A stretch of DNA of 64,000 nt, from positions 1 through 64,000 of the IMG/VR virus record IMGVR_UViG_3300021375_000017. One strand, written 5' to 3'. This document shows, in pieces, positions 3,585 to 42,353 of the stretch; positions within the stretch are counted from its first letter, which is position 1; each line of letters starts with the position of its first letter. The notes beneath the pieces are model-generated. The model searched no databases. It saw only the letters and a list, made by a program, of their open reading frames with translations, and had not been told where the DNA came from. This DNA is from a virus. A program made the position numbers and the translations under genes.

Positions 3585-4466
3585 ATGAGTAATGTTGACA
3601 TATATTTGGGTAATCCAAATCTCAAGAAAGCTAATACAGCCATTGAGTTTACCCAAGATAACATTGAAGAATATATTAAGTGTAAAGAAGACCCGGTTTA
3701 TTTTGCAAAGAACTATGTTCAGATTGTGACTCTAGACCATGGTCTTCAACCCTTTAAGTTGTATGACTTTCAGGAAAAACTAGTAAAGAACTTTCACGAA
3801 AAGAGATTTAATATCTGTAAGATGCCACGTCAGACTGGAAAGTCTACTACTGTAGTATCTTTTCTATTACATTATGCCATCTTCAATGATAGTGTCAATA
3901 TTGGTATTCTTGCAAACAAAGCATCCACGGCAAGAGAACTTCTTGGAAGGTTACAGATTGCTTATGAGAACCTACCTAAGTGGATGCAACAAGGGATTCT
4001 AGCATGGAACAAAGGTAGTTTGGAACTAGAGAATGGTAGTAAGATATTAGCAGCATCTACGTCTGCTTCTGCTGTTCGAGGTATGTCATTTAACATCCTC
4101 TTCCTTGACGAATTTGCATTCGTTCCAAACCATGTTGCAGACTCATTCTTTGCATCTGTTTATCCTACGATTACTTCTGGTAAATCTACAAAGGTAATTA
4201 TTGTTTCTACCCCACACGGTATGAATCACTTCTACCGTATGTGGCATGATGCGGAAAGAGGATTCAATGACTACACCCCAACAGATGTTCATTGGTCTCA
4301 AGTACCTGGTAGAGATGAAGTCTGGAAAGAACAGACTATTAAGAACACATCAGAACAACAGTTCAAAGTTGAGTTTGAGTGCGTTGGAGGTAATACATTG
4401 GTAGAAGTTGAGAAAGATGATATTATCAGTGAGATGAGGATAGAGGATTTATACAATACAATGTGA
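3585..4466 (+). CDS. 17: terminase large subunit (gp17), N-terminal half with N-intein
   Basis: This 293-residue ORF encodes the ATPase domain of the DNA-packaging motor plus a split-intein N-fragment. Visible motifs are the adenine-binding/Walker A segment MPRQTGKSTT (about residues 81-90), Walker B ILFLDEFAF (about 171-179) and the coupling motif STPHG (about 206-210). Extein residues 1-265 end at FKVEFE; Cys266 (codon 4380-4382) starts an intein N-fragment that closes with a stop at 4464-4466. The nuclease domain is encoded separately at 5060-6244. Neither half alone is a full terminase: a functional motor would require trans-splicing. Joined length is about 556 residues, normal for cyanophage gp17. 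The frame and sequence quality show no sign of a simple frameshift. Confidence 0.93.
   Translation: MSNVDIYLGNPNLKKANTAIEFTQDNIEEYIKCKEDPVYFAKNYVQIVTLDHGLQPFKLYDFQEKLVKNFHEKRFNICKMPRQTGKSTTVVSFLLHYAIFNDSVNIGILANKASTARELLGRLQIAYENLPKWMQQGILAWNKGSLELENGSKILAASTSASAVRGMSFNILFLDEFAFVPNHVADSFFASVYPTITSGKSTKVIIVSTPHGMNHFYRMWHDAERGFNDYTPTDVHWSQVPGRDEVWKEQTIKNTSEQQFKVEFECVGGNTLVEVEKDDIISEMRIEDLYNTM
4380..4463 (+). other. split intein N-fragment in TerL
   Basis: Twenty-eight residues from Cys (block A: CVGGNTLVEVEKDD) to the stop. The extein junction VEFE/CVGG and the short N-fragment match the architecture I recall for the atypical AceL-TerL intein of an Antarctic Ace Lake phage terminase (25-residue N-fragment, same junction). 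The partner fragment is at 5060-5368. Identification from memory of that family is strong, but no alignment was run. Confidence 0.92.
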
Positions 4467-4477
4467 GTTTCTTGGAT

Positions 4478-4485
4478 TATAAATA
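4478..4485 (+). promoter_or_regulatory. T4-like late promoter (TATAAATA) inside the split terminase locus
   Basis: An exact TATAAATA lies 12 bp downstream of the N-half stop and 12 bp upstream of the GIY-YIG ATG at 4498. It would let the endonuclease and the terminase C-half be transcribed late and independently of the N-half. Confidence 0.6.
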
Positions 4486-4497
4486 AAAATAAAAGTT

Positions 4498-5067
4498 ATG
4501 TATTATATTTACTTATTGAGAGATGATTATGGTGATGTCAAATATGTTGGTCAAACACAACAGATTGATGTTAGGAAAAGAGACCACAAAAGATTAAAAC
4601 CACCACATACATTTGAGATTTTATATGAAAATCTTAAAGTGTCTGATGCCAAGATGTTGGAAATAGAAAATATAGATAAGTATGATACATATAGAAATGG
4701 ATGGAATAAATCCTCTGGTGGGGAAGGATTTGATGATTATGAAAGAAAGGGTATTGGGGGAGTAAAGAAAGGAAATGTGCCTTGGAATAAAGGTAAAAAG
4801 GGATGTTTTAGTGAAGAAACTATCCAAAAGTTTAGTAATACAAGAAAAGGTATTGCCTGGAGTAGAAAACTTACTGACAAACAAATCACACAAATAAGAA
4901 ACTTGTATCAAGAACAACCACATGTTGATGGTGTTGGAGATGTAGCAAAAAATGGAAGAAAAATGTCTTATATTCAAGCATTTTGTAAGAAATACTGTAG
5001 TGATTATAATATAACACCACAAGGAATGAAACGTATTATATTAAAGGAGTGTTGGGCAAATGTATAA
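4498..5067 (+). CDS. GIY-YIG homing endonuclease between TerL halves
   Basis: A 189-residue protein opening with YYIYLLRD...VKYVGQT, the two beta-strands of a GIY-YIG nuclease (YIY for GIY, YVG for YIG), then a basic helix with catalytic Arg candidates (RKRDHKR), and WNKSSGGEGFDD. The C-terminal half contains KGNVPWNKGKKG and KFSNTRKGIAW, resembling NUMOD3-type DNA-binding repeats, and a helix-turn-helix-like end. It sits exactly between the two intein-bearing terminase halves and overlaps the C-half start by 8 bases. The likely role is homing: cutting phage genomes that lack the insertion at the terminase locus. It is preceded by its own late promoter. Confidence 0.88.
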   Translation: MYYIYLLRDDYGDVKYVGQTQQIDVRKRDHKRLKPPHTFEILYENLKVSDAKMLEIENIDKYDTYRNGWNKSSGGEGFDDYERKGIGGVKKGNVPWNKGKKGCFSEETIQKFSNTRKGIAWSRKLTDKQITQIRNLYQEQPHVDGVGDVAKNGRKMSYIQAFCKKYCSDYNITPQGMKRIILKECWANV

Positions 5068-5368
5068 AATAAACAACAATATAAAAGTAAAGACACCAAC
5101 TGGATTTCAATCATTTAGTGGAATACAGAAAGTTTTCAAACCATTTTATCATTGGATTATTTTTGATGATGGAAGTGAGATAAAATGTTCTGATAATCAT
5201 TCATTTGGGAGTGAGAAGATAAAGGCATCTTCTCTAAAACTTGATGACATTATTCAAGGAAAAAAAGTTGTATATAATGAAATAGTTGAGGAAGGAATAT
5301 ACTTATATGATTTATTGGATGTAGGGGAAGAAAACCTATACATTACCAATAAAATAGTTTCACATAAT
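5060..5368 (+). other. split intein C-fragment in TerL
   Basis: One hundred and three residues. Block B is EIKCSDNHSFG (His preceded at -3 by Ser), block F is ENLYITNKIV, and block G is the terminal SHN followed by Cys+1. It resembles my recollection of the AceL-TerL C-fragment, which also begins with an Asn-rich MxxxNxNNIK and ends ENLYITNxxVSHN before CEFL. All residues needed for trans-splicing appear present: Cys1 (other fragment), block B His, penultimate His, Asn and Cys+1. Confidence 0.92.
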
Positions 5369-6244
5369 TGTGAGTTCCTAGGTTCTGTTGATACACTCAT
5401 TGCGCCATCAAAACTTAAAACATTAGTCTATGAGAATCCTATTCAGAGAAATGCTGGATTAGATGTCTTTGAAACAGTCAAAGAGAATCATGATTATATT
5501 ATGACTGTTGACGTTGCCAGAGGAGTTGGTGGAGACTACTCTGCATTTGTTGTTATTGATATTACCACATTCCCACATAGATTGGTCGCAAAGTATAGGG
5601 ATAATGAAATCAAACCAATGTTATTTCCAAGTGTCATCTATGAAGTAGCAAAGAATTATAATGAAGCATTTATACTCTGTGAGGTCAATGACGTTGGAGA
5701 CCAGGTGGCTAGTATTCTTCAATATGACCTGGAGTATCAAAACTTGTTAATGTGCTCTATGAGAGGTAGAGCAGGTCAGATTGTTGGTCAAGGATTCTCT
5801 GGTAAGAAGACACAACTTGGTGTCAAGATGTCCAAAACTGTAAAGAAAGTTGGTTCTCTCAATCTTAAAACAATGATTGAAGAGGATAAACTCATTCTCT
5901 GGGATTATGAGATTATTTCAGAACTGACTACATTCATTCAGAAGAACAATTCCTTTGAAGCAGAAGAAGGATGTAATGATGACCTTGCAATGTGTCTGGT
6001 AATCTATGCATGGATGGTCGCACAGGATTATTTTAAAGAACTAACTGATCAGGATGTCAGAAAGAGATTATATGAAGAACAGAAAAACCAGATTGAACAG
6101 GACATGGCTCCATTTGGTTTCTTAGATGATGGTTTGGGTGAAGACAATTTTGTAGATGGTGATGGAGACAGATGGTACACACAAAACAATAAAATGGATG
6201 AATATGGAAACACTGCTGGTGGTTGGGAACTCTGGAATTACTGA
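5060..6244 (+). CDS. 17: terminase large subunit (gp17), C-terminal half with C-intein
   Basis: A 394-residue ORF: residues 1-103 are the split-intein C-fragment, residues 104-394 the terminase nuclease domain starting with Cys+1 (CEFLGSVDTL). The RNase H-like nuclease shows acidic residues in TVDVARGVGGDYSAF (about 146-160), LCEVNDVGDQ (about 208-217) and CNDDLAM (about 330-336), the usual metal-binding positions. The protein would cut concatemeric DNA during headful packaging after joining to the ATPase half. Start: ATG 5060 inside the end of the GIY-YIG gene, preceded by AAGGAG a dozen bases upstream. It ends with TGATG overlapping the next gene. Confidence 0.93.
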   Translation: MYKINNNIKVKTPTGFQSFSGIQKVFKPFYHWIIFDDGSEIKCSDNHSFGSEKIKASSLKLDDIIQGKKVVYNEIVEEGIYLYDLLDVGEENLYITNKIVSHNCEFLGSVDTLIAPSKLKTLVYENPIQRNAGLDVFETVKENHDYIMTVDVARGVGGDYSAFVVIDITTFPHRLVAKYRDNEIKPMLFPSVIYEVAKNYNEAFILCEVNDVGDQVASILQYDLEYQNLLMCSMRGRAGQIVGQGFSGKKTQLGVKMSKTVKKVGSLNLKTMIEEDKLILWDYEIISELTTFIQKNNSFEAEEGCNDDLAMCLVIYAWMVAQDYFKELTDQDVRKRLYEEQKNQIEQDMAPFGFLDDGLGEDNFVDGDGDRWYTQNNKMDEYGNTAGGWELWNY

Positions 6245-6474
6245 TGGATTTAGATGGTCAGATAAAACTTGGACACTTACTTCTGAACGATAGGAAGTGT
6301 AGAACTTGTGGAGAGACAAAGAACTTGATAGAAGGTTTTTATAGGACAAGAAAAGATAGAGGGCCTGTCGCATCTTCTTATTCTTACGAATGTAAAGAGT
6401 GTACTGTTAGAAGAGTTGTACAGAATAGAAAGAAAATGACTCCATTTGTTGATTGGAATTATCCAGATTGGTGA
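6244..6474 (+). CDS. small zinc-finger protein (HNH-like fragment)
   Basis: The start at 6244 overlaps the terminase stop (TGATG), which favours it over the GTG-like start 21 bases upstream. The 76-residue product has two CxxC pairs, CRTCGETK and CKEC, about 30 residues apart, with aromatic residues between, forming a zinc-ribbon or treble-clef-like knuckle like that of small HNH nucleases. No catalytic HNH histidine pair is obvious, so it may be only a DNA- or protein-binding zinc finger. Its position between gp17 and gp18 suggests co-expression with packaging and tail genes. Confidence 0.65.
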   Translation: MDLDGQIKLGHLLLNDRKCRTCGETKNLIEGFYRTRKDRGPVASSYSYECKECTVRRVVQNRKKMTPFVDWNYPDW

Positions 6475-6510
6475 CTCACGTCGTATTTCCCCACTGAAAA
6501 GACCCATAAT

Positions 6511-6518
6511 CATAAATA
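6511..6518 (+). promoter_or_regulatory. T4-like late promoter (CATAAATA) for gp18
   Basis: CATAAATA lies 34 bp upstream of the tail sheath ATG at 6553, and a GGAG ribosome-binding site (6541-6544) lies between them. This spacing is normal for a phage late gene. Confidence 0.6.
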
Positions 6519-6552
6519 TTTTTAGATAAACTGAGATCACGGAGAAAAATTC

Positions 6553-8745
6553 ATGGCGACTCCTCAATTATCTCCAGGCTTAATTGTCAGAGAAGTTGAC
6601 TTAACAGTAGGAAGAGCAGATAACGTTCTTGATAACATCGGTGCAATTGCCGGTCCATTTGAACTTGGACCAGTAAATGAGGCGATTGACATCACGACAG
6701 AACAAGAACTCATTAATTCCTTTGGTAAGCCACTTTCTACTGACAGACAGTATGAGTACTGGATGACGGCATCTTCCTACCTGTCGTATGGTGGTGTACT
6801 TAAGGTGGCCAGAGTTGCTGGTTCTACATTGGGTAACTCCAATGCTGGTGCTGGAGTTGCCTCTACATCGATGACTGGTAATGGTAGAATTGATAACTAC
6901 GATGACTACCAGGCCAATCACACAACTGATACTACTTGGAACTACGCAGCTAAGAACCCTGGTAAGTGGGCAAACAATCTGAAAGTATGTGTTATTGATA
7001 ATGCTGCTGACCAAACAATTGGAATCAATACTACTAACCCTGGTACCAGTGGAGCACTGGTTGGTAACGGTGTTACTGTAAGTCTCAGTGGTGTTGTTAT
7101 TCCTGGTGCAGGTACTACTTCAGTATTCAACGGTTACCTCAAAGGTATTATTACTGGTGTTACAACTGATGCCACTAGTGGTGCTAGTTCAATTGACGTT
7201 AAAATTGTTTCCAGAGTTTCTGGAAGCACCGAAACTAAAATCAATTATCAACAGAGTAATAGTGCTGCATCAATCGCAGTTTCTGACACTGTAAACTTTG
7301 TTAATAACTCTGGTATCAGCACAGGTACTTCACAAGCAGCAACAACTTCTGTTGACTGGTATGATCAACAAAGTCTTGGACTCACCAATTCCACAGTTTT
7401 TTGGAAGTCAATTGCACCGAGACCAGTAGCGTCAAACTATGTTACTCAGAGAAAAGGTGGAAATGACGGTATTCACGTTGTAGTTGTTGATGACACTGGT
7501 TCAGTAACAGGTATTCAAGGAAACATCCTTGAGAAGTTTACGAATCTTTCTAAGGCAGTAGATGCTACCTCTGATGGTAACGCGCCAACGAAGACTTACT
7601 ATAAGAACTTTGTTGCTGACAATTCAGCATACATTTATGCAGGTAAGAATCCTTCACAAGAAGCTGATACTTATTGGAACACTAGTCCATTGGCTTCAGG
7701 TTTCTCTGCGGCATTCACTCCAATCACAACTGGAGCAGGTCTTTGGGGATTAGAAGCACAGGGTGTTACCTTCTCTTCTATTGGTTCAGTAAGTTACACC
7801 TTTACTGGTGGTGTTGATTATTCCGCAAACGGTGGAATGGAGGCTCAACTGGGAGACTTGAACACTGCTTACGATTTGTTCTCTAATAAAGATGAGATCG
7901 AAGTTGATTACGTGATCATGGGTCCTGGTTTGAGTGATGAGTCACAATCACAAGCCAAGGCAAATAAAGTCATCTCTATTGCTGAGGCGAGAAAAGATTG
8001 TGTTGCAACTGTGTCACCACACAGAGCAAACGTTGTTAATGTTACCAACACAACCACTGCTACAAGTAATCTGTTGAGATACTACTCACCACTTACTTCT
8101 TCATCGTATGCAGTCTTTGATAGTGGTTATAAGTATACTTTTGATAGATTCAATAACGAGTTCAGATACATTCCATGTAACGGTGATGTTGCTGGACTGA
8201 TGACTAGAACTAACCTGGTTGCCTTCCCATGGTTCTCACCTGCAGGTACTCAAAGAGGAACTCTGAATAATGCCATCAAGTTGGCATATAATCCCACTAA
8301 GGCTCAAAGAGATCAACTTTATCCTGCAAGAGTTAACTCCATCATCAATCAAAAAGGTAGTGGAATCATTCTCTTCGGTGATAAGACTGGTCTTGGTTAC
8401 GCTTCTGCATTCGACAGAATCAACGTAAGAAGACTGTTCCTCACAGTTGAACAGGCACTTGAAGGAGCTGCAAATTCTCAACTCTTTGAGCTCAATGATA
8501 GTAACACAAGGTCGAATTTCGTTAACATTGTTGAACCATACTTGAGAGATGTTCAGGCTAAGAGGGGTGTTTACGACTTCCTCATTGTTTGTGATGATAC
8601 CAACAATACTCCTGAAGTAATTGACAACAATGAGTTTAGGGCAGACATCTACCTGAAACCAACCAAGTCGATTAACTTTGTCACTCTCACCTTCATTGCT
8701 ACAAGAACTGGTGTCCAGTTCTCTGAAGTTGCAGGTCGTGGTTAA
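6553..8745 (+). CDS. 18: tail sheath protein gp18
   Basis: A 730-residue contractile sheath subunit. The N-terminus SPGLIVREVDLT is the conserved entry strand of myovirus sheath proteins, and the C-terminal ~250 residues (from about YNPTKAQRDQLYPARVNSI to IYLKPTKSINFVTLTFIATR) form the conserved core that packs around the tube. Length is somewhat above T4 gp18 (659), with a Gly/Ser/Thr-rich insertion around residues 150-290 expected to form the variable outer domain. It is followed directly by the tail tube gene. Function: polymerises around gp19 and contracts to drive DNA injection. Confidence 0.95.
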   Translation: MATPQLSPGLIVREVDLTVGRADNVLDNIGAIAGPFELGPVNEAIDITTEQELINSFGKPLSTDRQYEYWMTASSYLSYGGVLKVARVAGSTLGNSNAGAGVASTSMTGNGRIDNYDDYQANHTTDTTWNYAAKNPGKWANNLKVCVIDNAADQTIGINTTNPGTSGALVGNGVTVSLSGVVIPGAGTTSVFNGYLKGIITGVTTDATSGASSIDVKIVSRVSGSTETKINYQQSNSAASIAVSDTVNFVNNSGISTGTSQAATTSVDWYDQQSLGLTNSTVFWKSIAPRPVASNYVTQRKGGNDGIHVVVVDDTGSVTGIQGNILEKFTNLSKAVDATSDGNAPTKTYYKNFVADNSAYIYAGKNPSQEADTYWNTSPLASGFSAAFTPITTGAGLWGLEAQGVTFSSIGSVSYTFTGGVDYSANGGMEAQLGDLNTAYDLFSNKDEIEVDYVIMGPGLSDESQSQAKANKVISIAEARKDCVATVSPHRANVVNVTNTTTATSNLLRYYSPLTSSSYAVFDSGYKYTFDRFNNEFRYIPCNGDVAGLMTRTNLVAFPWFSPAGTQRGTLNNAIKLAYNPTKAQRDQLYPARVNSIINQKGSGIILFGDKTGLGYASAFDRINVRRLFLTVEQALEGAANSQLFELNDSNTRSNFVNIVEPYLRDVQAKRGVYDFLIVCDDTNNTPEVIDNNEFRADIYLKPTKSINFVTLTFIATRTGVQFSEVAGRG

Positions 8746-8783
8746 TAACTATTACAAATATCTAAAACAGGAGTACTAAACCA

Positions 8784-9416
8784 ATGGCAGAAGCAAAAAC
8801 CATTTCTCAATTCAAATCAAAATTGGCGGGTGGTGCAGCCCGTAACAATTTATTTGAAGTTTCAATCCCTTCGTTTCCTTCAGCAATAAGTGATGCTTGG
8901 AACTCTGGTGACAATGGTGAGAACGGAGTTTTTAAATTCCTCTGTAAGGCAGCCAACCTTCCAGCATCAACCGTTGCCGCCATCGATATTCCTTTCAGAG
9001 GTAGAAATCTGAAAGTTGCTGGTGACAGAACGTTTGCTGATTGGACCGTCACCGTCATGAATGACGAAGACTTCAAACTCAGAACCGCTTTTGAAAAGTG
9101 GTCTAATGTTCTTAGTAAATTGGAAGACAACACAGGTGTAACGAATCCAGGTTCTTACATGACTGATGCATATGTCCAACAACTTGGTAGAGGACGTGAG
9201 AAGTTCTCCACTTCAAACGGTGGTGGTGAACATTCTGTTCTTAGAACTTATAAGTTCTATGACATTTGGCCAAATGACATCAGTGCAATTGATTTGAACT
9301 ATGATTCAGCCAATTCAATCGAAACATTCACTGTAAACTTCAGTGTTCAATACTTCACCATCGGTGAATCACCTGAATCCAACACTGGTTCTGCGACAGA
9401 AGAATTGATTCGTTGA
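8784..9416 (+). CDS. 19: tail tube protein gp19
   Basis: A 210-residue inner tail tube subunit, longer than T4 gp19 (163). The protein begins with a short amphipathic leader, then RNNLFEVSIPSFP, FKFLCKAANLPAS, DWTVTVMNDEDFKLR and YDIWPNDISAIDLNY, a pattern that fits the myoviral tube beta-barrel. A GGAG ribosome-binding site lies upstream (aacaggagtac). It sits between the sheath and portal genes, as in all T4-like phages. Hexameric rings stack to make the DNA conduit. Confidence 0.93.
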   Translation: MAEAKTISQFKSKLAGGAARNNLFEVSIPSFPSAISDAWNSGDNGENGVFKFLCKAANLPASTVAAIDIPFRGRNLKVAGDRTFADWTVTVMNDEDFKLRTAFEKWSNVLSKLEDNTGVTNPGSYMTDAYVQQLGRGREKFSTSNGGGEHSVLRTYKFYDIWPNDISAIDLNYDSANSIETFTVNFSVQYFTIGESPESNTGSATEELIR

Positions 9417-9422
9417 TAAATA
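9415..9422 (+). promoter_or_regulatory. T4-like late promoter (GATAAATA) for gp20
   Basis: GATAAATA overlaps the gp19 stop codon and lies 31 bp upstream of the portal ATG at 9454. Confidence 0.5.
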
Positions 9423-9453
9423 CTAGAACAGAAGTTTCTAGTCAATAATAATA

Positions 9454-11121: not shown

Positions 11122-11148
11122 ATACCAATGTAATGAAATCATTTAGAC

Positions 11149-11373: not shown

Positions 11374-11403
11374 ACTATTATACAACAATTGTAATTAAAG
11401 ATA

Positions 11404-11952: not shown

Positions 11953-11960
11953 GAAAACAA

Positions 11961-21869: not shown

Positions 21870-22478
21870 ATGGGATATATCTATAAGATTATCAATAATG
21901 TGAATGGTAAATTCTATATTGGTAAAACAGAGAGGACAATTGGGTATAGATTTTCTACACACAAATCCTCCTCTGTTTCACCTAAAGATTATTTTCATAG
22001 GGCATTGAAAAAATATGGTGTGGAGAATTTCTCTATTATTTCTCTTAAAGAAATAAGAGAAGAGGATGATATTAATGAATTAGAGAGACACTATATTAAG
22101 TGGTTGAAACCTCACTACAACCTCAAAGAAGGTGGTGAAGGTGGAAGACACTCTGATATATCAAGACAGAGGATGAGTAAATCTCAATTTGGTGTGAAGA
22201 GAAATCACACACCAGAAAACAGAAAGAAAACCAGTAAAAAGATTAGTGAGTCAAACAAAGGTAAGAATACCTGGACTCAAAATAAGAAGTGGTGGAATAA
22301 TGGTGTTGAGTGTAAATATCAAGAAACACAACCAGAAGGATTTGTAAGAGGAAGATTACCAAAACACAAGAGAGGCCTAACACCGGGATTGGAACTCGGA
22401 ACCAAACTCAATCTTACAGAGGAAGAAAGAAAGAGAAGAAGTAATCACCTTAAACAAGTCCGAAGAAAGGTGTTATAA
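21870..22478 (+). CDS. GIY-YIG homing endonuclease after gp46
   Basis: A 202-residue free-standing nuclease. GYIYKIIN...KFYIGKTERT gives the GIY and YIG strands; the basic helix that follows contains RFSTHKSS; ELERHYIKWLKPHYNLKEGGEGG supplies the catalytic Glu region. NUMOD3-like repeats follow (SRQRMSKSQFG, NRKKTSKKISESNKGK). It is inserted between gp46 and the next operon and is typical of seg-type endonucleases that promote unidirectional inheritance of the flanking DNA. No intein or intron remnants are seen in gp46. Confidence 0.88.
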   Translation: MGYIYKIINNVNGKFYIGKTERTIGYRFSTHKSSSVSPKDYFHRALKKYGVENFSIISLKEIREEDDINELERHYIKWLKPHYNLKEGGEGGRHSDISRQRMSKSQFGVKRNHTPENRKKTSKKISESNKGKNTWTQNKKWWNNGVECKYQETQPEGFVRGRLPKHKRGLTPGLELGTKLNLTEEERKRRSNHLKQVRRKVL

Positions 22479-34073: not shown

Positions 34074-36610
34074 ATTTCTATACAAACATACAGATGATTG
34101 GAAATCAATTCCTTGTTCGTGGTTATGAGGACGGAAAGAGAGTTCACTATCGTGATACCAACTATCGTCCAACTCTGTATGTTAACTCTAAAGTCCCCAC
34201 AAAATACAAAACTCTGGAAGGTGAATATGTTGAGGAAATTCAACCTGGAACAGTAAAGGACTGTAGAGACTTTTATAAGAAGTATGATGAGATCGAGAAC
34301 TTCAAGATCTATGGTAATGAGAGATATATCTACCAATACATTTCTGACAAGTATCCTCAGGATGAGATAAAGTTTGACATCAAGAAGATGAGACTTTTGA
34401 CTATCGATATTGAGGTCTCATCAGAAGAGGGATTTCCTGACCCAGAACATTGTTCTGAGGAGATGTTGACCATCTCTATTCAGGATTATGCAACTAAGAA
34501 AATTACAACTTGGGGCAGAAAACCATATACCCCTAGTCAGGACAATGTGACCTATCATTATTATCCTGAAGAAAGAGAAATGCTTGGTGCATTCATTGAT
34601 TGGTGGATGAATGACTATCCTGATGTTGTGACTGGGTGGAATACCCGTCTGTACGACATCCCATATATCTGTGGAAGGATCGATAGGGTTCTGGGTGAGA
34701 GGGCCCTTAGGAATCTGTCTCCATGGGGTCTAGCGACCAAGAGAGAGACTTGGATCAATGGCCGTATGTTTTATATCTACGATATTGGTGGTATCACTGA
34801 CCTAGACTATCTGGAGTTGTATAAGAAGTTTACTTATGTGAATCGTGAGTCTTACCGACTGGACTTCATTGCAGAGGTTGAACTTGGTCAAAAGAAATTA
34901 GACCACTCTGAGTTTGATACATTCAAAGACTTCTATACTGGTGATTGGAAAAAGTTTGTAGATTACAACATCGTTGACGTGGAACTTGTTGACCGTATGG
35001 AAGACAAGATGAAACTGATTGAGTTGGTTATCACCATGGCATACGATGGTAAGGTAAACTTTGGTGACCCAATGTTCCAAGTTAGATTGTGGGACACCAT
35101 TATCTACAACTATTTGAAGAAGAGGAATATTGTTATTCCTCCAAGGATCAATACTGATAAGAGTGAAAAGTTTGCTGGGGCCTATGTAAAGGAACCCAAA
35201 CCAGGTGTATATGATTGGGTTGTAAGTTTTGACTTGAACTCACTTTATCCGCATTTAATTATGCAATACAATATCTCACCTGAGACACTTCAGGAAGAGA
35301 AGCACCCATCAGTTACCATTCAAAAGATTCTTGATGAGAAACTTGATTTTCAGATGTATAAGGACTATGCGGTCTGTGCCAATGGTGCAATGTACCGTAA
35401 AGATGTGAAAGGTTTCCTACCTGAACTGATGGAGAAGATGTATGCTGAACGTAAGGCATTCAAGAAGGAGATGTTGAAGTCTAAACAGAAACTGGTTGAC
35501 ATTGAATCAAAACTGAAGACCAATAAGGATCCAGTTCTCCGTAGACAGAGAGAACAAACCATCAAAGATATTGCTAAGTTCAATAACTTTCAGATGGTGA
35601 GAAAGATTTGTTTGAACTCTGCCTACGGTGCAATTGGTAATGCATACTTTAGATATTTCAAACTTGCCAATGCAGAAGCGATTACGATGTCAGGTCAGAC
35701 ATCTATTCGTTGGATTGAAAATCATATGAATGAATATCTAAATAACTTACTTTCAACAGAAGATGTAGATTATGTCATCGCATCTGACACCGATTCAATC
35801 TATCTTAACTTTGGACCTATTGTTGATAAATTTCTTGGTGATAAAGTTAACGATACGAGCAAGGTTGTTTCTATCATTGACAAAGTCTGTCAAGAGAAAC
35901 TGGAACCGTTCATCGAAACATCTTATCAAAATCTTGCGACGTATGTAAACGCATACGATCAGAAGATGCAGATGAAACGGGAGAACATTGCAGACCGTGG
36001 AATTTGGACTGCAAAGAAGAGATACATTCTCAATGTATGGGATAGTGAAGGTGTTAGGTATGAAGATCCTAAACTTAAGATCATGGGTATTGAGGCAGTC
36101 AAGTCATCCACTCCAGCACCCTGTAGGAGTATGATTAAGGATGCTCTCAAACTAATGATGAATGGAACAGAAGATGATGTGATTGAGTATATTGATAAGT
36201 GTAGAAGTGACTTTAAGAAACTTCCCATTGAAGCTATTTCTTTCCCTAGATCTGTTTCTGATGCCCAGAAGTATAAGGCACATGCAACGATCTACTCAAA
36301 GGGAACTCCTATTCATTGTCGTGGTGCCCTATTGTTCAATCACTACATAAAAGAAAAGAAGTTAACAAACAAATATTCACTTATCAATAACGGTGAAAAG
36401 ATTAAATTTTGTTATCTTAAAAAACCAAATATCATCCATGAGAATGTGATCTCATTTATTTCAGAGTTTCCAACAGAGTTGGGACTTGACCAATATGTGG
36501 ATTATGACTTACAATTTGAAAAGGCATTCTTAGAACCTCTCAAGGTCATTCTTGATGCCATTGGATGGAATGTAACTAAGATAAATACTTTAGAAAGTTT
36601 TTTTATGTAA
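34070..36610 (+). CDS. 43: DNA polymerase gp43
   Basis: An 846-residue family B polymerase (T4 gp43 is 898). Exonuclease motif DIEVSSEEGFPD (about residues 108-119) and the VTGWNTRLYDIPYI Exo II region precede polymerase motifs: A SFDLNSLYPHLI, B KICLNSAYGAIGN and C ASDTDSIY. It is a continuous reading frame with no intein or intron. It replicates phage DNA with gp45/44/62. A GIY-YIG endonuclease gene follows before uvsX. Confidence 0.97.
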   Translation: MNFYTNIQMIGNQFLVRGYEDGKRVHYRDTNYRPTLYVNSKVPTKYKTLEGEYVEEIQPGTVKDCRDFYKKYDEIENFKIYGNERYIYQYISDKYPQDEIKFDIKKMRLLTIDIEVSSEEGFPDPEHCSEEMLTISIQDYATKKITTWGRKPYTPSQDNVTYHYYPEEREMLGAFIDWWMNDYPDVVTGWNTRLYDIPYICGRIDRVLGERALRNLSPWGLATKRETWINGRMFYIYDIGGITDLDYLELYKKFTYVNRESYRLDFIAEVELGQKKLDHSEFDTFKDFYTGDWKKFVDYNIVDVELVDRMEDKMKLIELVITMAYDGKVNFGDPMFQVRLWDTIIYNYLKKRNIVIPPRINTDKSEKFAGAYVKEPKPGVYDWVVSFDLNSLYPHLIMQYNISPETLQEEKHPSVTIQKILDEKLDFQMYKDYAVCANGAMYRKDVKGFLPELMEKMYAERKAFKKEMLKSKQKLVDIESKLKTNKDPVLRRQREQTIKDIAKFNNFQMVRKICLNSAYGAIGNAYFRYFKLANAEAITMSGQTSIRWIENHMNEYLNNLLSTEDVDYVIASDTDSIYLNFGPIVDKFLGDKVNDTSKVVSIIDKVCQEKLEPFIETSYQNLATYVNAYDQKMQMKRENIADRGIWTAKKRYILNVWDSEGVRYEDPKLKIMGIEAVKSSTPAPCRSMIKDALKLMMNGTEDDVIEYIDKCRSDFKKLPIEAISFPRSVSDAQKYKAHATIYSKGTPIHCRGALLFNHYIKEKKLTNKYSLINNGEKIKFCYLKKPNIIHENVISFISEFPTELGLDQYVDYDLQFEKAFLEPLKVILDAIGWNVTKINTLESFFM

Positions 36611-36613
36611 AGT

Positions 36614-37300
36614 ATGACCATGGGCAAATATTATACTTATGCCTATTTGCGTGAAGATGGAACTCCTTATTATATCGGTAAAGGATTAAAAAACAGGAAA
36701 TCTAAAAAGCATTTTAGAAGAAATGGAAAAGTATTTTCTCCTCCATCAGAAGATAAAATAATTATTCTCAAACAGAATTTAACTGAAAAAGAAGCATTTA
36801 AGCACGAAATTTATATGATTTCCGTTTTGGGTAGAAAAGATTTGGGGACTGGTATTTTGAGAAATTTGACTGAAGGTGGTGAAGGGAGTAGTGGATATAA
36901 ACACTCCGATGAATTTAAATCTAAAATTAGAAAAGTTCAGAGTGGTAGAGTTATTTCCAATACAACTAAAGAAAAAATGAGAAATGCAAATCTTGGAAAA
37001 GTTTTATCTGATGAACATAAAAAAAAGATTGGAGAATCGCAAGGGGGGAAAGTTGTAAATGAGGAGGTTAGAAAAAAAATAAGTAATACACTAAAAGGAA
37101 AAAAACATAGTCCAGAAAGAATTAATAATATAAGAAAGGGAATGGGATGTGAAACTTATAAATTCATTTCCCCAGAAGGTAAAATAATTGAAGTTGATAA
37201 TATGACGCAATTCTGCTATGATAGAAATCTACAGCAAAGTTGTATGTCAAACATCTGGAACAATAAAAGAAACTTTCATAAAGGATGGAAAAAAGCATAA
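36614..37300 (+). CDS. GIY-YIG homing endonuclease between gp43 and uvsX
   Basis: A 228-residue nuclease: YYTYAYLREDGTPYYIGKG contains the GIY-YIG strands (AYL, YIG), followed by the basic RKSKKHFRRNGK patch and the NLTEGGEGSSGY element. Several NUMOD3-type repeats follow (HSDEFKSKIRKVQSGR, EKMRNANLGK, KKKIGESQGGK, RKKISNTLKGKKHSPE), which bind DNA, then a C-terminal helix-turn-helix-like region. Its stop overlaps the UvsX start (TAATG). A free-standing element flanking two essential genes is a classic homing position. Confidence 0.88.
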   Translation: MTMGKYYTYAYLREDGTPYYIGKGLKNRKSKKHFRRNGKVFSPPSEDKIIILKQNLTEKEAFKHEIYMISVLGRKDLGTGILRNLTEGGEGSSGYKHSDEFKSKIRKVQSGRVISNTTKEKMRNANLGKVLSDEHKKKIGESQGGKVVNEEVRKKISNTLKGKKHSPERINNIRKGMGCETYKFISPEGKIIEVDNMTQFCYDRNLQQSCMSNIWNNKRNFHKGWKKA

Positions 37301-38217
37301 TGGACTTTTTATCAGATATTGTAAAAGAGATTGGAGATGACTTTACCAAACTTGCTGCCGACATCGATGACACTGAGACATATGTGGACACAGGTTCGTT
37401 CGTTCTTAACGCTCTTGTATCTGGGTCTATCCGTGGTGGTGTATCTGGGAATAAAATTACTGCAATTGCTGGCGAAAGTTCTACTGGAAAGACTTTCTTT
37501 TCACTCGCAGTGGTCAAGAACTTCTTGGATACTAATCCCGATGCATATTGCCTTTATTTTGATACTGAGGCAGCAGTTAATAAGTCACTACTAGTAAGTC
37601 GTGGCATTGATCTGAATCGACTAGTTGTTGTTAATGTCGTTACCATTGAGGAGTTTAGGAGTAAGGCTCTCAAGGCGGTAGACATGTATTCAAAAAAACC
37701 TGAAGATGAACGTAAACCTTGTATGTTTGTGTTAGATTCTTTAGGAATGCTTTCTACAGAGAAAGAAATCACTGATGCCCTCAATGAGAAACTTGTCCGT
37801 GATATGACAAAATCTCAGTTGATTAAAGGGGCTTTCAGAATGTTGACTCTTAAATTGGGTCAAGCCAAAATACCAATGATTGTAACCAATCACACCTATG
37901 ATGTCATCGGAGCTTATGTTCCTACAAAGGAAATGGGTGGGGGTTGTTTAGTTGCGGGAACTAAGATACAAACAGAAAATGGTTCTATTCCTATTGAATC
38001 TATTCAAGTTGGTGACAAAGTGAGAACTATGTTTGGTTATTCATCAGTTACTGACACTTTCCATTTCACCGATAAAGATGTTTATGAATTGGAATTGGAA
38101 GATGGAGAAACTATTAGATGTTCTGGCGAACATAAGTTTTTAGTAGATACTGGAGATGGTTATGAATGGAAATCCGTTACTGAGTTATTACCTTCAGATA
38201 CTATCAAATCTATGTGA
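37300..38217 (+). CDS. uvsX: recombinase UvsX, N-terminal half with N-intein
   Basis: The RecA-family strand-exchange protein, N-terminal part. The start at 37300 gives MDFLSDIVKEIGDD, the normal UvsX N-terminus; 37285 is a possible upstream ATG. Walker A GESSTGKT (about residues 58-65), Walker B MFVLDSLGML (about 145-154), and PMIVTNHTYDVIG. After KEMGGG, at the L2 DNA-binding loop, Cys (codon 37945-37947) begins a 90-residue intein N-fragment ending at a stop. The extein part is 215 residues. The rest of UvsX is at 39002-39367. The protein should be active only after trans-splicing. Confidence 0.93.
   Translation: MDFLSDIVKEIGDDFTKLAADIDDTETYVDTGSFVLNALVSGSIRGGVSGNKITAIAGESSTGKTFFSLAVVKNFLDTNPDAYCLYFDTEAAVNKSLLVSRGIDLNRLVVVNVVTIEEFRSKALKAVDMYSKKPEDERKPCMFVLDSLGMLSTEKEITDALNEKLVRDMTKSQLIKGAFRMLTLKLGQAKIPMIVTNHTYDVIGAYVPTKEMGGGCLVAGTKIQTENGSIPIESIQVGDKVRTMFGYSSVTDTFHFTDKDVYELELEDGETIRCSGEHKFLVDTGDGYEWKSVTELLPSDTIKSM
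37945..38214 (+). other. split intein N-fragment in UvsX
   Basis: Ninety residues: block A CLVAGTKIQTENG, then IPIESIQVGDKVRT, VYELELEDGETIRCSGEHKF (block B, Ser at -3 from His), and a C-terminal region around LLPSDTIKSM. Length and split point match canonical split inteins of the DnaE and gp41-1 type. Confidence 0.93.
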
Positions 38218-38222
38218 AAGTT

Positions 38223-38267
38223 GGTTCTGGACTAAATAATAATAATTGAGTCCAGAACCTTGTTTTT
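38223..38267 (+). terminator. strong hairpin after UvsX N-half (terminator or translation switch)
   Basis: A perfect 11-bp stem, GGTTCTGGACT (38223-38233) with AGTCCAGAACC (38249-38259), a 15-nt loop, then TTGTTTTT. It lies six bases after the N-half stop, and the TTG start of the HNH gene is the first codon after the stem. It could terminate transcription, stabilise the N-half mRNA or limit endonuclease translation. Confidence 0.7.
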
Positions 38268-38931
38268 ATCCAATAAGTATACTGATTGTTATTTCCGTAT
38301 TATTAATAAGGCAAATCTTAGGAAACTTCCTCAAATTACTGAATGTCATCATATTATACCTAAATCATTAGGTGGAGGAGAAGAACCAGAAAACAAAGTA
38401 TATCTAACACCAAGAGAACATTTTGTCTGTCATCATCTTCTTCTGAAGATGTTAGAGGGAAAATCAAAACAGAAAATGTGTTATGCTTTTTATAGAATGA
38501 ACTCCAGTAATAATGGAGTTAGGTGTGAAAATCTCAATTCTTATGATAGAATAAGAGAACACTACTCTCATCTCACTTCTGGAGTAAATAACCCATTTTA
38601 TGGGAAGGGGCATTTTGGATATTCTAACCCAATGTCCAAACCTGAGGTTCGGGAGAAACATAAACAAATAGTTTCTTCACCTGAACATAGAAAGATGATG
38701 AGTGATAAAATGTCTGGTGAAAATAATCCATTTTACGGAAGAACTCATTCAGATGAAACCAAGAAACATCTTTCTGAGTTGGCGTCTCAGAGAACAGGTG
38801 AAAACTCTTCCCGTTATGGGAAGAAACACAGACGAGTTGTTTGTGAACACTGCCAAAAAGAAATTACTTACCCAATGTATAAGAGGTGGCATGGAACGAA
38901 TTGTAAAGTCTATCAAGAAAATAAAGACTGA
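38260..38931 (+). CDS. HNH homing endonuclease between UvsX halves
   Basis: A 223-residue protein with a TTG start at 38260 right after the hairpin; no better start is visible. ECHHIIPKSLGGGEEPENKV is the H-N part and YLTPREHFVCHHLLLKML completes an HNH-type beta-beta-alpha metal site. NUMOD-like repeats follow (SGVNNPFYGKGH, SGENNPFYGRTHSDETKKHL), then a C-terminal CEHCQKEI zinc knuckle. It lies between the split intein-bearing halves of UvsX and its last 41 bases overlap the start of the C-half. Predicted role: homing into intein-less uvsX genes. Confidence 0.85.
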   Translation: MFLSNKYTDCYFRIINKANLRKLPQITECHHIIPKSLGGGEEPENKVYLTPREHFVCHHLLLKMLEGKSKQKMCYAFYRMNSSNNGVRCENLNSYDRIREHYSHLTSGVNNPFYGKGHFGYSNPMSKPEVREKHKQIVSSPEHRKMMSDKMSGENNPFYGRTHSDETKKHLSELASQRTGENSSRYGKKHRRVVCEHCQKEITYPMYKRWHGTNCKVYQENKD

Positions 38932-39001
38932 GGATGTTTATGACATCACAGTTGAAGGAGAACATCATTATATTCTTGGTAATGGTGTCGTGTCTCACAA
39001 T
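38891..39001 (+). other. split intein C-fragment in UvsX
   Basis: Thirty-seven residues, with block F VYDITVEGEHHYILGNGVV and block G SHN, followed by Ser+1. The Asp in VYDI and the penultimate His are in place. Size is like the 35-37 residue C-fragments of DnaE/gp41-type split inteins. Confidence 0.92.
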
Positions 39002-39367
39002 TCTGGCCTTAAGTATGCAGCGTCTACAATCATCTATCTCTCAAAGAAAAAGGAAAAGGATGGAACAGAAGTGGTCGGCAATCTTATCAAGGCTAAGACT
39101 GCTAAGTCGCGTTTAAGTAAAGAGAATAAAGATGTTACTATACGTCTCTATTACGATGAACGTGGTCTTGATAGGTATTACGGTCTCTTAGAACTTGGAG
39201 AACTTGGTGGACTATGGAAAAACGTTGCAGGACGTTATGAGATGGATGGTAAGAAAGTCTATGCTAAGGCCATCCTGAAAGAACCTGAGACTTATTTTAC
39301 ACCTGAAGTGATGGAAAAACTAGATGAAATCGCAAAAGAACAATTCTCTTATGGTTCGTCATTATGA
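38891..39367 (+). CDS. uvsX: recombinase UvsX, C-terminal half with C-intein
   Basis: The ATG at 38891 lies inside the end of the HNH gene and gives a 37-residue C-intein followed by 121 residues of UvsX. The extein begins SGLKYAASTIIYLSKKK and continues with the conserved TAKSRLSKENKDVTIRLYYD and the C-terminal DNA-binding region. Joined with the N-half it gives about 336 residues, normal for cyanophage UvsX. The frame is open further upstream, but only this start gives a standard C-intein length. Confidence 0.9.
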   Translation: MERIVKSIKKIKTEDVYDITVEGEHHYILGNGVVSHNSGLKYAASTIIYLSKKKEKDGTEVVGNLIKAKTAKSRLSKENKDVTIRLYYDERGLDRYYGLLELGELGGLWKNVAGRYEMDGKKVYAKAILKEPETYFTPEVMEKLDEIAKEQFSYGSSL

Positions 39368-39866
39368 TGTTGTTCCAGAGTCATACTGTAAAAAACTAAT
39401 TGAGATATTTGAAAACTCCTCTAATCAGGAGTTTATCAATAATGATCACAAACCATGTTTCAGTCAGGTTAATCTGAGTAAAGAAAATCCTGAAATGGTC
39501 AGACAAATCATTCCCATTATTAAAGGTGTACATACTCTGTATAAGAAGGAAACCAAATCTTATTTTCTTCCAGAGTTAAATGCCCTTGAAGAACTTAGGA
39601 TTAAAAGATACCTTCCTAATGGTGAGGAAAGGTTTGATGAACATGTAGACGTGACTGACTATCCCTCATCAAGAAGGTCAGTTGCATTTTTATTTTATCT
39701 GAATACTAATGATGGTAATACAGTTTTTTCTAAACAGAAGTTGAACATTAAACCAAAGTGTGGTAGGGTAGTAGTATTCCCTCCTACATGGGAATATCCT
39801 CATGCAAGACTCCCCCCAACAACTAGTAACAAATACATCATGAGTACATATATTCACTATGGATAA
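39351..39866 (+). CDS. Fe(II)/2-oxoglutarate oxygenase (prolyl-hydroxylase-like)
   Basis: A 171-residue double-stranded beta-helix oxygenase. ERFDEHVDV supplies the HxD iron ligands and YPHARLPPTTSNKYIMSTY the distal His and the 2-oxoglutarate-binding Lys/Arg region; VAFLFYLNTNDGNTVF is the central strand. Cyanophages commonly encode such proteins near uvsX; substrates are unknown. The start at 39351 overlaps UvsX by 17 bases; an ATG at 39324 is an alternative with a larger overlap. Confidence 0.85.
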   Translation: MVRHYDVVPESYCKKLIEIFENSSNQEFINNDHKPCFSQVNLSKENPEMVRQIIPIIKGVHTLYKKETKSYFLPELNALEELRIKRYLPNGEERFDEHVDVTDYPSSRRSVAFLFYLNTNDGNTVFSKQKLNIKPKCGRVVVFPPTWEYPHARLPPTTSNKYIMSTYIHYG

Positions 39867-40491
39867 GGTTGAATTTTTAGTTCTGAAAAATCTAATACAC
39901 AATGAAAAATACTTGAGAAAGGTTCTTCCATTCATTAAAGAAGAATATTTTGATGATACTAAATATAAGGTAATCTTCGACGAGATCTCTACCTTTACTG
40001 CTGAGTATAACGAACTCCCTACAAAAGAGATTCTCAATATTGAGATTGAAAAGAGAAGAGATATTAATGAGGACTCTTATAAACAGATTTCTCATGTAGT
40101 TAATTGTCTTGAGGACGATGTTGTAGAGTTTGATTGGTTGGTTAACACTACTGAGAAGTGGTGTCGTGACCGTGCCATTTATCTTGCCTTGATTGAATCC
40201 ATTCAGATTGCTGATGGAGGAGATGTCAAGAAGGCACCAGATGCCATTCCATCTATTCTGTCTGATGCTCTGGCAGTTAGTTTTGACAACCATGTAGGAC
40301 ATGATTACCTTGAAGATTATGAATCACGATACGAGTCTTATCACAGGAAGGAGGAGAGAATTGAATTCGATCTCGACTATTTTAACAAAATCACGAAAGG
40401 TGGGCTCCCTAACAAAACTCTTAACATCGCACTTGCTGGTTGCGTTCATCCAGAAACTAAAGTTAAAATTAGATTTAAGAAGATTTCTTGA
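39859..40491 (+). CDS. 41: replicative helicase gp41, N-terminal half with N-intein
   Basis: A 210-residue ORF holding the N-terminal domain and linker of the DnaB-type helicase (MDKVEFLVLKNLIHNEKYLR ... FNKITKGGLPNKTLNIALAG). The P-loop is interrupted: LAG is followed by Cys195 (codon 40441-40443), which starts a 16-residue intein fragment and a stop. The rest of the P-loop (TGVGKS) opens the C-half extein at 41556. Its last 17 bases overlap the antisense HNH gene. The N-half cannot bind ATP on its own, so helicase function should depend entirely on trans-splicing. Confidence 0.92.
   Translation: MDKVEFLVLKNLIHNEKYLRKVLPFIKEEYFDDTKYKVIFDEISTFTAEYNELPTKEILNIEIEKRRDINEDSYKQISHVVNCLEDDVVEFDWLVNTTEKWCRDRAIYLALIESIQIADGGDVKKAPDAIPSILSDALAVSFDNHVGHDYLEDYESRYESYHRKEERIEFDLDYFNKITKGGLPNKTLNIALAGCVHPETKVKIRFKKIS
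40441..40488 (+). other. very short split intein N-fragment in gp41
   Basis: Only 16 residues, CVHPETKVKIRFKKIS, covering block A. This is shorter than the roughly 25-residue N-fragment I recall for the atypical AceL-TerL intein. The rest of the Hint fold, including block B, is on the C-fragment. Confidence 0.88.
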
Positions 40492-41143
40492 TTATGGAAT
40501 TTGGTGCTGGTTCTCCAGTTCCAAATTTCCATCCTTCGTTTAATTTAGTATCAATATTTTCTGGTAGTATTCTTTTCCATCCCTTTGTTCCTGGTAAGTA
40601 CATTACCTTTTTTCCTTTATGTGCTTTACCTCCAAGAGATGCTCTTTGTTGTCTTCCTTGATTAGACGCCCAGTAATTGAATTCTTTAGATGCTCTTTGC
40701 TTTCCTCCAAAAGATGCTCTTTCCTTTCTACCTTCTTCTGTACTCCAGTAATAAAAATTTTTAATGTTATCTTTTAAATATTCTTGTTTTTGAGTTTCCA
40801 TTCCTTTGACCATCCATTCTTTTCTTTCATCTATTGGAACAGAAAAGAAACCAATCTTATTATCTCTACAAAATTCCCCAATTATTTTTCTATATTGTGG
40901 AGATAAGTTTGCTCCTAACATTTTCATAGACCTTAAGTCATTTGGATTTTTGTATATTTTCCATAACAAATAATGTGCTATGATATGTTCTCTAACATTT
41001 AGGTATGTAAGGTTACAATCATCATCTGTTCCTCCCATATGTTTAGGAACAACATGATGTTCGTGTAGTCCTGAATATTTTTTATAATCTTCTTTTCTTG
41101 ACTTATTGCCTTTGCATAAGTTAGAATAGATACGATCAAACAT
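40475..41143 (-). CDS. HNH homing endonuclease, antisense, between gp41 halves
   Basis: The only clear minus-strand gene in the window, 222 residues. LHEHHVVPKHMGGTDDDCNL and NVREHIIAHYLLWKIY form the HNH beta-beta-alpha motif. Repeats with RASFGGKQRA and RASLGGKAHKGK, like NUMOD/NUMOD3 elements, follow, and the C-terminus ends in a basic segment. It is convergent with the helicase N-half (17-base overlap), divergent from the C-half, and has its own late promoter at 41166. It is probably a homing enzyme for the gp41 locus. Its orientation prevents read-through transcription of both helicase halves in one sense from including it as a sense ORF. Confidence 0.87.
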   Translation of the reverse strand: MFDRIYSNLCKGNKSRKEDYKKYSGLHEHHVVPKHMGGTDDDCNLTYLNVREHIIAHYLLWKIYKNPNDLRSMKMLGANLSPQYRKIIGEFCRDNKIGFFSVPIDERKEWMVKGMETQKQEYLKDNIKNFYYWSTEEGRKERASFGGKQRASKEFNYWASNQGRQQRASLGGKAHKGKKVMYLPGTKGWKRILPENIDTKLNEGWKFGTGEPAPNSIIKKSS

Positions 41144-41165
41144 TCCCTGTCCCTGCTACTGCTAT

Positions 41166-41173
41166 TATTTATA
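41166..41173 (-). promoter_or_regulatory. minus-strand late promoter (TATAAATA) for the HNH gene
   Basis: The + strand TATTTATA reads TATAAATA on the minus strand, 22 bp upstream of the HNH start at 41143. It is the only late promoter seen on this strand and fits the only minus-strand gene. Confidence 0.6.
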
Positions 41174-41177
41174 TAAA

Positions 41178-41555
41178 ATGTGGATTGAAAAAGAAACAAC
41201 AATTGCTGAAATCAAAACATTACTTGATAATGGATATGAAGTAGAAGTTGATTCTCCCGATGGATATGTTCCAGTTAATTTCTTTATTAACAAAGGAATG
41301 TATGATGAATATGTTTTGAGAATCGATGGCATTGATGAACTTATAAGATGCAATGCCAATCATTTATTTCAGACATCTTTGGGGTGGATGAGTGCATCGC
41401 ATCTTTATAAAAAATATAAAATAATGCATTTTTTAACCGAGAGTGGTTATAAACTTGGTAGTGTATTTAAAACAGGAAATCAAATACCTATTGTTGATAT
41501 TAATGTAAATCATCCAAATCACAGGTATTATACTAATGGAGTTTCTTCTCATAAT
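41178..41555 (+). other. split intein C-fragment in gp41
   Basis: One hundred and twenty-six residues, with block B region ELIRCNANHLFQT (His preceded at -3 by Asn rather than Thr/Ser), block F PIVDINVNHPNHRYYTNGV and block G SSHN followed by Thr+1. The fragment holds nearly the whole Hint fold, as expected when the N-fragment is only 16 residues. Confidence 0.9.
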
Positions 41556-42353
41556 ACTGGCGTCGGGAAATCTCTATTCATGTGCCATGTGGCTAGCTCC
41601 GTCTTGCTCCAAGGGAGGAACGTTCTCTACATTACAATGGAGATGGCAGAAGAGCGCATTGCTGAAAGAATTGATGCGAACCTCTTGAATGTAAATATCC
41701 AGGAAATTGTTGACCTTCCAAAACAAATGTTTGAAACAAAGGTTACAAACCTGGCACAAAAGACTCAAGGTCACCTAATTATTAAGGAGTATCCTACTGC
41801 CTCTGCTCATGCTGGACACTTCAAATCACTTCTTAATGAACTTGCACTTAAGAAGTCATTTCGACCTGATATTATTTTCATTGATTACCTTAATATATGT
41901 TCTTCCGAAAGATATCGCGGAAATAGCACTGTCAATTCATATTCATATATTAAAGCAATTGCTGAAGAACTTAGAGGACTTGCTGTTGAAGCAAACGTCC
42001 CTATCATATCTGCCACTCAGACCACTCGTTCTGGTTATGGTAGCTCTGACGTTGAGCTTACTGACACTAGTGAGTCCTTTGGTCTCCCTGCTACTGCTGA
42101 TCTTATGTTTGCCCTTATTTCGACTGAAGAGTTGGAATCGTTGGGACAAATACTTGTAAAGCAATTGAAGAATAGGTATAATGATTACTCTGTCCATAGA
42201 CGTTTTGTTGTTGGTATTGATCGTGCCAAGATGAGATTATATGATTGTGAACAGTCTGCACAGGATGACCTTCTTGACAATGGTAAGGAAGAAGAGTACA
42301 ATAATGATGAACAAGAAAAACCTAAAAAATCATTTAGTGGATTTAAATTTTAA
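41178..42353 (+). CDS. 41: replicative helicase gp41, C-terminal half with C-intein
   Basis: A 391-residue ORF: residues 1-126 are the intein C-fragment, then Thr+1 opens TGVGKSLFMCHVASS, the rest of the Walker A motif. Further helicase motifs are VLYITMEMAEERIAERIDAN (H1a), IIFIDYLNICSSERY (Walker B), PIISATQTTRSG (H3) and QLKNRYNDYSVHRRF (H4). The extein is 265 residues, and with the N-half totals about 459, close to T4 gp41 (475). It overlaps mazG by one base (TAATG). Confidence 0.93.
   Translation: MWIEKETTIAEIKTLLDNGYEVEVDSPDGYVPVNFFINKGMYDEYVLRIDGIDELIRCNANHLFQTSLGWMSASHLYKKYKIMHFLTESGYKLGSVFKTGNQIPIVDINVNHPNHRYYTNGVSSHNTGVGKSLFMCHVASSVLLQGRNVLYITMEMAEERIAERIDANLLNVNIQEIVDLPKQMFETKVTNLAQKTQGHLIIKEYPTASAHAGHFKSLLNELALKKSFRPDIIFIDYLNICSSERYRGNSTVNSYSYIKAIAEELRGLAVEANVPIISATQTTRSGYGSSDVELTDTSESFGLPATADLMFALISTEELESLGQILVKQLKNRYNDYSVHRRFVVGIDRAKMRLYDCEQSAQDDLLDNGKEEEYNNDEQEKPKKSFSGFKF

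Follow-up and report, generated by a model that had tools for sequence, protein, structure and literature searches.

How does a phage make three of its essential motors when the gene for each is broken in two? This question is raised by a 64,000-base stretch of marine viral DNA (the window; bases 1-64000 of the 92,001-base IMG/VR record IMGVR_UViG_3300021375_000017), in which the genes for the terminase gp17 (TerL), the recombinase UvsX and the helicase gp41 are each present as two open reading frames (ORFs) with split-intein fragments, and a homing endonuclease gene (HEG) occupies each gap. Judging from its genes, the source phage is a T4-like cyanophage, because the gene order is T4-type, close matches are to Synechococcus and Prochlorococcus myoviruses, and the other 28 kb of the record contain psbA, a transaldolase-like gene and a PstS-like gene (named by eye). 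The explanation that we favor, with a probability of about 0.9 for the whole, is that the three motors would be assembled from trans-spliced halves, with HEG-driven homing, orthogonal splicing reactions and late HEG expression.

Three motor genes broken by split inteins

Relatives of the three loci were collected by scans of IMG/VR, and contig counts are given after removal of duplicate loci by eye. The six halves, and the parts of which they consist, are as follows.

3585-4466, plus strand: TerL N-half, including the intein N-fragment
3585-4379, plus strand: TerL (gp17) N-extein, 265 residues, holding Walker A (Terminase_6N, 2e-22)
4380-4463, plus strand: TerL intein N-fragment, 28 residues (CVGGNT...YNTM), S2-type atypical split; 28-29 residues in nearly all of 42 relatives
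4498-5067, plus strand: GIY-YIG homing endonuclease gene in the terL gap (PF01541, 1.2e-4, just above cut-off; phrog_314, 6e-14)
5060-6244, plus strand: TerL C-half, including the intein C-fragment
5060-5368, plus strand: TerL intein C-fragment, 103 residues, ending SHN (matching PDB 6dsl_B)
5369-6244, plus strand: TerL C-extein (Cys+1), RNaseH-like nuclease (Terminase_6C, 4e-15)
37285-38217, plus strand: UvsX N-half, including the intein N-fragment
37285-37944, plus strand: UvsX N-extein, 220 residues (phrog_97, 7.6e-72)
37945-38214, plus strand: UvsX intein N-fragment, 90 residues, canonical split (TIGR01445 above cut-off)
38260-38931, plus strand: HNH homing endonuclease gene in the uvsX gap, with NUMOD3; TTG start uncertain (phrog_655, 1.3e-43; NUMOD3, 5e-15)
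38891-39001, plus strand: UvsX intein C-fragment, 37 residues, ending SHN (TIGR01443 above cut-off)
39002-39367, plus strand: UvsX C-extein (Ser+1), 121 residues
39859-40491, plus strand: gp41 N-half, including the intein N-fragment
39859-40440, plus strand: gp41 helicase N-extein, 194 residues, ending within Walker A (..LAG)
40441-40488, plus strand: gp41 intein N-fragment, 16 residues (CVHPETKVKIRFKKIS), S1-type VidaL-like split
40475-41143, minus strand: HNH homing endonuclease gene in the gp41 gap, antisense (phrog_655, 9e-16)
41178-42353, plus strand: gp41 C-half, including the intein C-fragment
41178-41555, plus strand: gp41 intein C-fragment, 126 residues, ending SHN (matching PDB 6vgv)
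41556-42353, plus strand: gp41 helicase C-extein (Thr+1), opening with the rest of Walker A, TGVGKS (DnaB_C, 1e-16)

A preliminary description of this DNA had already recognized the two-ORF arrangement of the three genes, and the six halves were recovered here. Intein position 1 is Cys in all three loci, and His-Asn precedes Cys+1 (TerL), Ser+1 (UvsX) or Thr+1 (gp41), as had been described; these catalytic ends are kept across dozens of relatives. The N- and C-fragments comprise 28 + 103 residues in TerL, 90 + 37 in UvsX and 16 + 126 in gp41. Joining the exteins gives normal family lengths, for which the earlier values of 556 (TerL) and 459 residues (gp41) stand, but the UvsX value of 336 has to be corrected to 341. 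PHROG profile positions resume across each break within about two positions (phrog_2, 263-452 on the N-half and 451-639 on the C-half of TerL; phrog_97, 16-239 and 239-331 for UvsX; phrog_19, 161-361 and 362-595 for gp41), and unbroken alleles run across each of the three junctions. The UvsX C-half starts at ATG 38891, overlapping the HNH ORF, with the Shine-Dalgarno-like AGAGGTGG upstream. PHROG and Pfam matches agree with the earlier assignment of the gap genes to GIY-YIG, HNH and HNH, the two HNH calls being weak in Pfam and clear in PHROGs. No group I intron was found at the three breaks in an Rfam search.

Against the PDB, the TerL C-fragment matched CatC, an engineered consensus intein (E 2e-52), the gp41 intein matched VidaL (E 2e-14) and the UvsX intein matched gp41-1 (E 6e-15). 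Natural contiguous inteins in gp41 (L255, L285-L289) and UvsX (L248, L249) unite the same two fragments. AlphaFold2 models of contiguous relatives had a predicted local distance difference test score (pLDDT) of 91.7 for gp41 (best PDB match VidaL, template modeling (TM) score 0.87) and 90.3 for UvsX (best match gp41-1, TM 0.82). A Hint fold of the joined fragments is thus indicated for TerL through the CatC match, and for gp41 and UvsX through models of contiguous homologs, as distinct from the pairs of the window itself. Together with the conserved ends, the solved trans-splicing relatives and these natural contiguous versions bear out the split-intein reading.

AceL-TerL and GOS-TerL represent a naturally split type with an N-fragment of 25-37 residues, VidaL a split type with a 16-residue N-fragment, and gp41-1 the canonical type (PMC11766414, PMC13014065). 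Because the matched relatives represent these types, one phage carries split positions S2 (TerL), S1 (gp41) and S0 (UvsX).

Under the favored explanation, gp17/TerL, UvsX and gp41 would each be made as two polypeptides bearing complementary intein parts. These parts would associate into one Hint domain, which would excise itself and ligate the exteins into full-length motors; from the families involved we infer a chemistry of Cys1 with Cys+1, Ser+1 or Thr+1, plus the C-terminal Asn. The splits after intein residue 16, 28 or 90, together with strong divergence (24-29% pairwise identity among the three inteins), would keep the reactions separate. Orthogonality is plausible on these grounds. Among 16 split inteins studied together in earlier work, 15 proved orthogonal, and cross-reaction was seen mostly in pairs with an atypical split and one short fragment (PMC7090010); two of the three inteins in the window are of this type, which makes orthogonality likely rather than certain.

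The terL echo and possible endonuclease regulation

Four further features lie beside the gap HEGs.

4462-4485, plus strand: homing-site "echo" TGTGAGTTTCTTGG, a copy of the C-extein start CEFLG; putative HEG autorepressor operator
4478-4485, plus strand: T4-like late promoter TATAAATA, abutting the echo
38223-38259, plus strand: strong RNA hairpin directly 5' of the HNH gene (-19.1 kcal/mol, z -5.3); both arms resemble the UvsX C-extein start (SGL)
41166-41173, minus strand: T4-like late promoter TATAAATA, 23 bases upstream of the antisense HNH gene and on its strand

The echo overlaps the stop codon of the TerL N-half, and differs from the C-extein start TGTGAGTTCCTAGG (CEFLG) at wobble positions only. 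It is followed by the late-promoter-like TATAAATA, and then by the GIY-YIG gene. The window contains 9 copies of the promoter motif, where about 4 would be expected, and three of these copies lie just before HEGs. A combined pattern search returned 108 contigs, and all 80 listed matches lie within fractured terL. With the terL junction taken as the homing site by assumption, the junction sequence was ranked for its likeness to the echo against all other positions of the same TerL exteins (28 loci), giving a median in the top 0.5% on the forward strand and an unremarkable result on the reverse strand; the rank was top 0.5-2% in three HEG lineages. Since the echo sequences are related, these statistics count few independent events. 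An echo is again present in two distant HEG lineages: VECDFGG precedes the HEG where the junction is FE/CDFVG (L458, L459), and IECNFLE precedes it where the junction is FE/CEFLG (L460). The L460 enzyme has an HNH_3 catalytic domain, and its C-terminal half is common to the GIY-YIG enzyme of the window.

In phage T4, the GIY-YIG enzyme I-TevI has a homing-site-like operator that overlaps its late promoter, is bound as tightly as the homing site and mediates self-repression (PMC2988022). Read most economically, the terL echo is a putative autorepressor operator of this type. We extend this reading tentatively, with confidence a little short of even, to split-intein HEGs that self-regulate as I-TevI does: a DNA-binding domain recognizing the junction would also bind a promoter mimic, and the operator would be kept through GIY-YIG/HNH exchange, so that three orthogonal splicing reactions would be combined with late, self-limiting homing.

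The echo might instead be a fossil of the DNA flank carried in by the HEG on entering the intein, by a recombination pathway proposed for mobile group I introns. We regard this as possible, if rather doubtful. The placement of the echo exactly at the end of the N-fragment, and its wobble-position differences from the C-extein, fit such an origin. However, the echo is kept over large divergence and tracks the local extein (CDF versus CEF lineages), it stays by the late promoter even where an HNH replaces the GIY-YIG catalytic domain, and no stand-alone echo occurs among the listed matches. A stand-alone HEG beside an unbroken terL, as the fossil idea predicts, was found in none of 31 HEG relatives or 80 listed echo matches.

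At the uvsX locus, both arms of the hairpin are similar to the junction, for the most part on the reverse strand, where the similarity ranked in the top 1% at 10-11 of the 19 distinct loci; because the loci are related and the sequence is palindromic, these matches count as one event, and a uvsX echo is no more than suggestive. Hairpins of T4 HEGs restrict expression to the late phase (PMC2988022), and the uvsX hairpin is reminiscent of these. At gp41, a candidate echo was rejected: the C-extein query was not significant on either strand, and a weak signal appeared only when the query spanned the junction, in which case it lay within the coding end of the HNH gene. Under the favored explanation, expression of the gap HEGs would be late and would depend on promoters of their own or follow a hairpin.

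Three more free-standing HEGs with GIY-YIG/NUMOD3 features lie at 21870-22478 (after gp46), 36614-37300 (after gp43) and 58065-58685 (after nrdB, with TATAAATA at 58036), for a total of six HEGs in 64 kb.

Relatives, mobility and competing explanations

The preliminary description had called three such genes in one genome exceptional. The triple split state is indeed rare in these data, being met only in this contig, but the single loci are widespread: TerL is split in 42 other contigs and contiguous in none, UvsX is split in 33, and gp41 is split in about 70, with contiguous gp41 inteins at eight loci (seven contigs). Inteins in both uvsX and gp41 recur in at least eight contigs (including G006, G007, G010, G011 and several shorter ones). 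A distant phage (L355; contig G027, 129 kb) bears an intein at each of the three sites; the one in gp41 is split, and those in UvsX and TerL are contiguous. It has a fourth intein, at the Walker A of TerL, and the C-part of this one opens a separate ORF. Four TerL-fractured contigs that also hold uvsX or gp41 could be judged (G001, G002, G003, G005), and none is split there; 15 others contain neither gene and are uninformative on the triple state. Most contigs compared are fragments, and the sample is small.

Presence of the inteins is polymorphic, as expected for mobile elements, because unbroken alleles exist for terL at 94% (L051) and for uvsX at 90% DNA identity (L167), and in a phage that shares about 95% identity with the window along most of their common stretch, gp41 is split and uvsX is unbroken (L298). 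The gap contents of gp41 also vary, comprising different HEGs and unrelated cargo genes. On a tree of 62 gp41 C-halves, gap type (assigned from the N-fragment end, in some cases coarsely) requires 26 changes, with many forks weak; the well-supported branches by themselves already require 5-6 changes in every one of the three main gap types. On this tree, turnover of the HEG cassettes within gp41 is frequent. Homing of the kind known from these families would account for these patterns: the gap HEG would cut an intein-less allele at the insertion site, and repair would copy the entire cassette of N-fragment, HEG and C-fragment.

If the inteins splice and the HEGs are inert passengers, the loci would be vertically inherited and no longer mobile. 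Split alleles without an HEG fit this idea, both in TerL (L005-L007, with stop and split retained) and in gp41 (L320/L321). We nevertheless consider it improbable, given the presence/absence differences among phages 94-95% identical, the roughly 26 gap-content changes, and a contig that matches the window at 100% identity on the N-flank and at about 80% on the C-flank, the switch falling at the cassette (L038).

Three contiguous gp41 inteins (L255, L285, L289) nest within a well-supported split clade (100/98), and for this reason look like re-fusions of split ones. In two UvsX loci (L248, L249), the N-fragment reads in frame into the final nucleotides of the HNH gene, which lead on to the C-fragment (AAATCTAT followed by ATGTATAAGAGGTGGCATGG); most simply, a deletion would have removed the HEG and left its tail as a linker.

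That the halves work as non-covalent complexes, with the intein fragments as dead tails, is very unlikely. A ribonucleotide reductase split by an HEG and working as two peptides, cited in PMC10448857, is a precedent, and the TerL ATPase and nuclease domains lie mostly on separate halves. Such tails would not be expected to keep their intein ends and Hint residues across divergent contigs (38 invariant columns in a 26-row gp41 intein alignment), nor their contiguous versions to remain in frame. In gp41 the break severs the P-loop itself: Walker A is cut at LAG/TGVGKS, and unspliced halves would therefore lack a P-loop. An assembly or chimera artefact, conceivable for a metagenomic contig, has a negligible chance, since L243, which comes from a different metagenome, matches the window at 100% identity through 12 kb that include the uvsX and gp41 breaks, near-identical contigs such as L003 cover terL, and there are dozens of independent relatives.

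Some points weigh against the trans-splicing explanation. First, the TerL and gp41 fragments fall below the cut-offs of generic intein models, which the UvsX fragments alone exceed (TIGR01445, TIGR01443), and no fragment reaches the curated PF14890 cut-off; recognition of the former two as inteins comes through their solved PDB relatives. Second, intact copies elsewhere had been named as evidence that would contradict trans-splicing; no intact terL, uvsX or gp41 copy occurs within the whole 92-kb record, but this record is probably about half of the genome, and the other half may hold one. Third, the hairpin 3' of the UvsX N-half could act as a terminator.

Several relatives have further inteins or unusual gaps. 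In TerL, a second, contiguous intein of endonuclease size lies at Walker A (QTGK/A..HN/STTVV), upstream of the split one, in L449, L450 and L456. Vibrio phage VP-1 (L431) likewise has a contiguous intein at the TerL Walker A, and its N-half reads without a stop from the intein N-fragment into HEG-like sequence, the C-half being separate. The distant TerL split inteins of L458 and L459 have Ser in place of Cys as their first residue (Ser1/Cys+1), as has been reported for GOS-TerL. In the gp41 of L285-L288, a contiguous VidaL-like intein occupies Walker A, and the N-part of a split intein of the gp41-1-like kind follows downstream, at TRSGY. Non-HEG cargo in gp41 gaps (L302, L309, L306, L322 and others) includes a 'MDAQ(D/E)FRSLQEAYM' protein of no assigned function and another with a metallopeptidase-like HEIIH motif. 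UvsX is broken twice within about 11 residues in L248, L249 and L166, by a different split intein (HN/SYVPTKEMGGG) and then by a contiguous version of the UvsX intein of the window. In the cultured Shewanella phage Thanatos-1 (L436), a split intein breaks UvsX with a Seg-like GIY-YIG HEG in the gap, and the halves are annotated as two 'recombination proteins'; this phage is a possible test bed.

Significance and comparison with known systems

The window offers a natural set of three split inteins, one fold cut at three places, that should have to function side by side in one infected cell, and is thus a ready-made test of orthogonality and of phage tolerance for broken essential genes. Its relatives display steps of a cycle (HEG insertion, exchange, deletion, re-fusion), so that ideas on how split inteins arise and are lost can be tested. 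The operator-like echo ties intein-borne HEGs to regulation known from T4 introns.

The TerL intein resembles AceL-TerL, GOS-TerL and Cat (PDB 6dsl) in its gene, its S2-type atypical split and its C-fragment match; it differs in its 28-residue N-fragment, and genomic context, HEG and echo are added here. The gp41 intein is like VidaL (PDB 6vgv) in its 16-residue N-fragment and S1 split, and its contiguous relative in fold; it differs in its position in the gp41 Walker A, in sequence (about 29% identity in structural alignment) and in having contiguous forms nested in split ones. The UvsX intein shares the canonical split of gp41-1 (PDB 6qaz), its nearest solved relative, and differs in residing in UvsX and in sequence (about 31% identity in structural alignment). 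I-TevI and the terL HEG are alike in the GIY-YIG domain, the T4-like late promoter and the homing-site-like sequence at the promoter; I-TevI resides in a group I intron and its repression was measured, whereas the terL case concerns a split intein and is drawn from sequence.

Each single locus is of a known kind. Dassa et al. 2009 (NAR 37:2560) reportedly described 'fractured genes' with split inteins and free-standing HEGs, mainly in phage and in enzymes of DNA metabolism, and are said to have stressed a Vsr-like family. All three loci of the window are like these in having an enzyme gene broken by a split intein, with an HEG ORF between the halves. They differ in that there are three per contig, with three split positions and with GIY-YIG and HNH enzymes. 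What is new is the three split positions in one genome, the operator-like echo, and the cassette turnover, HEG loss and apparent re-fusion displayed by the relatives.

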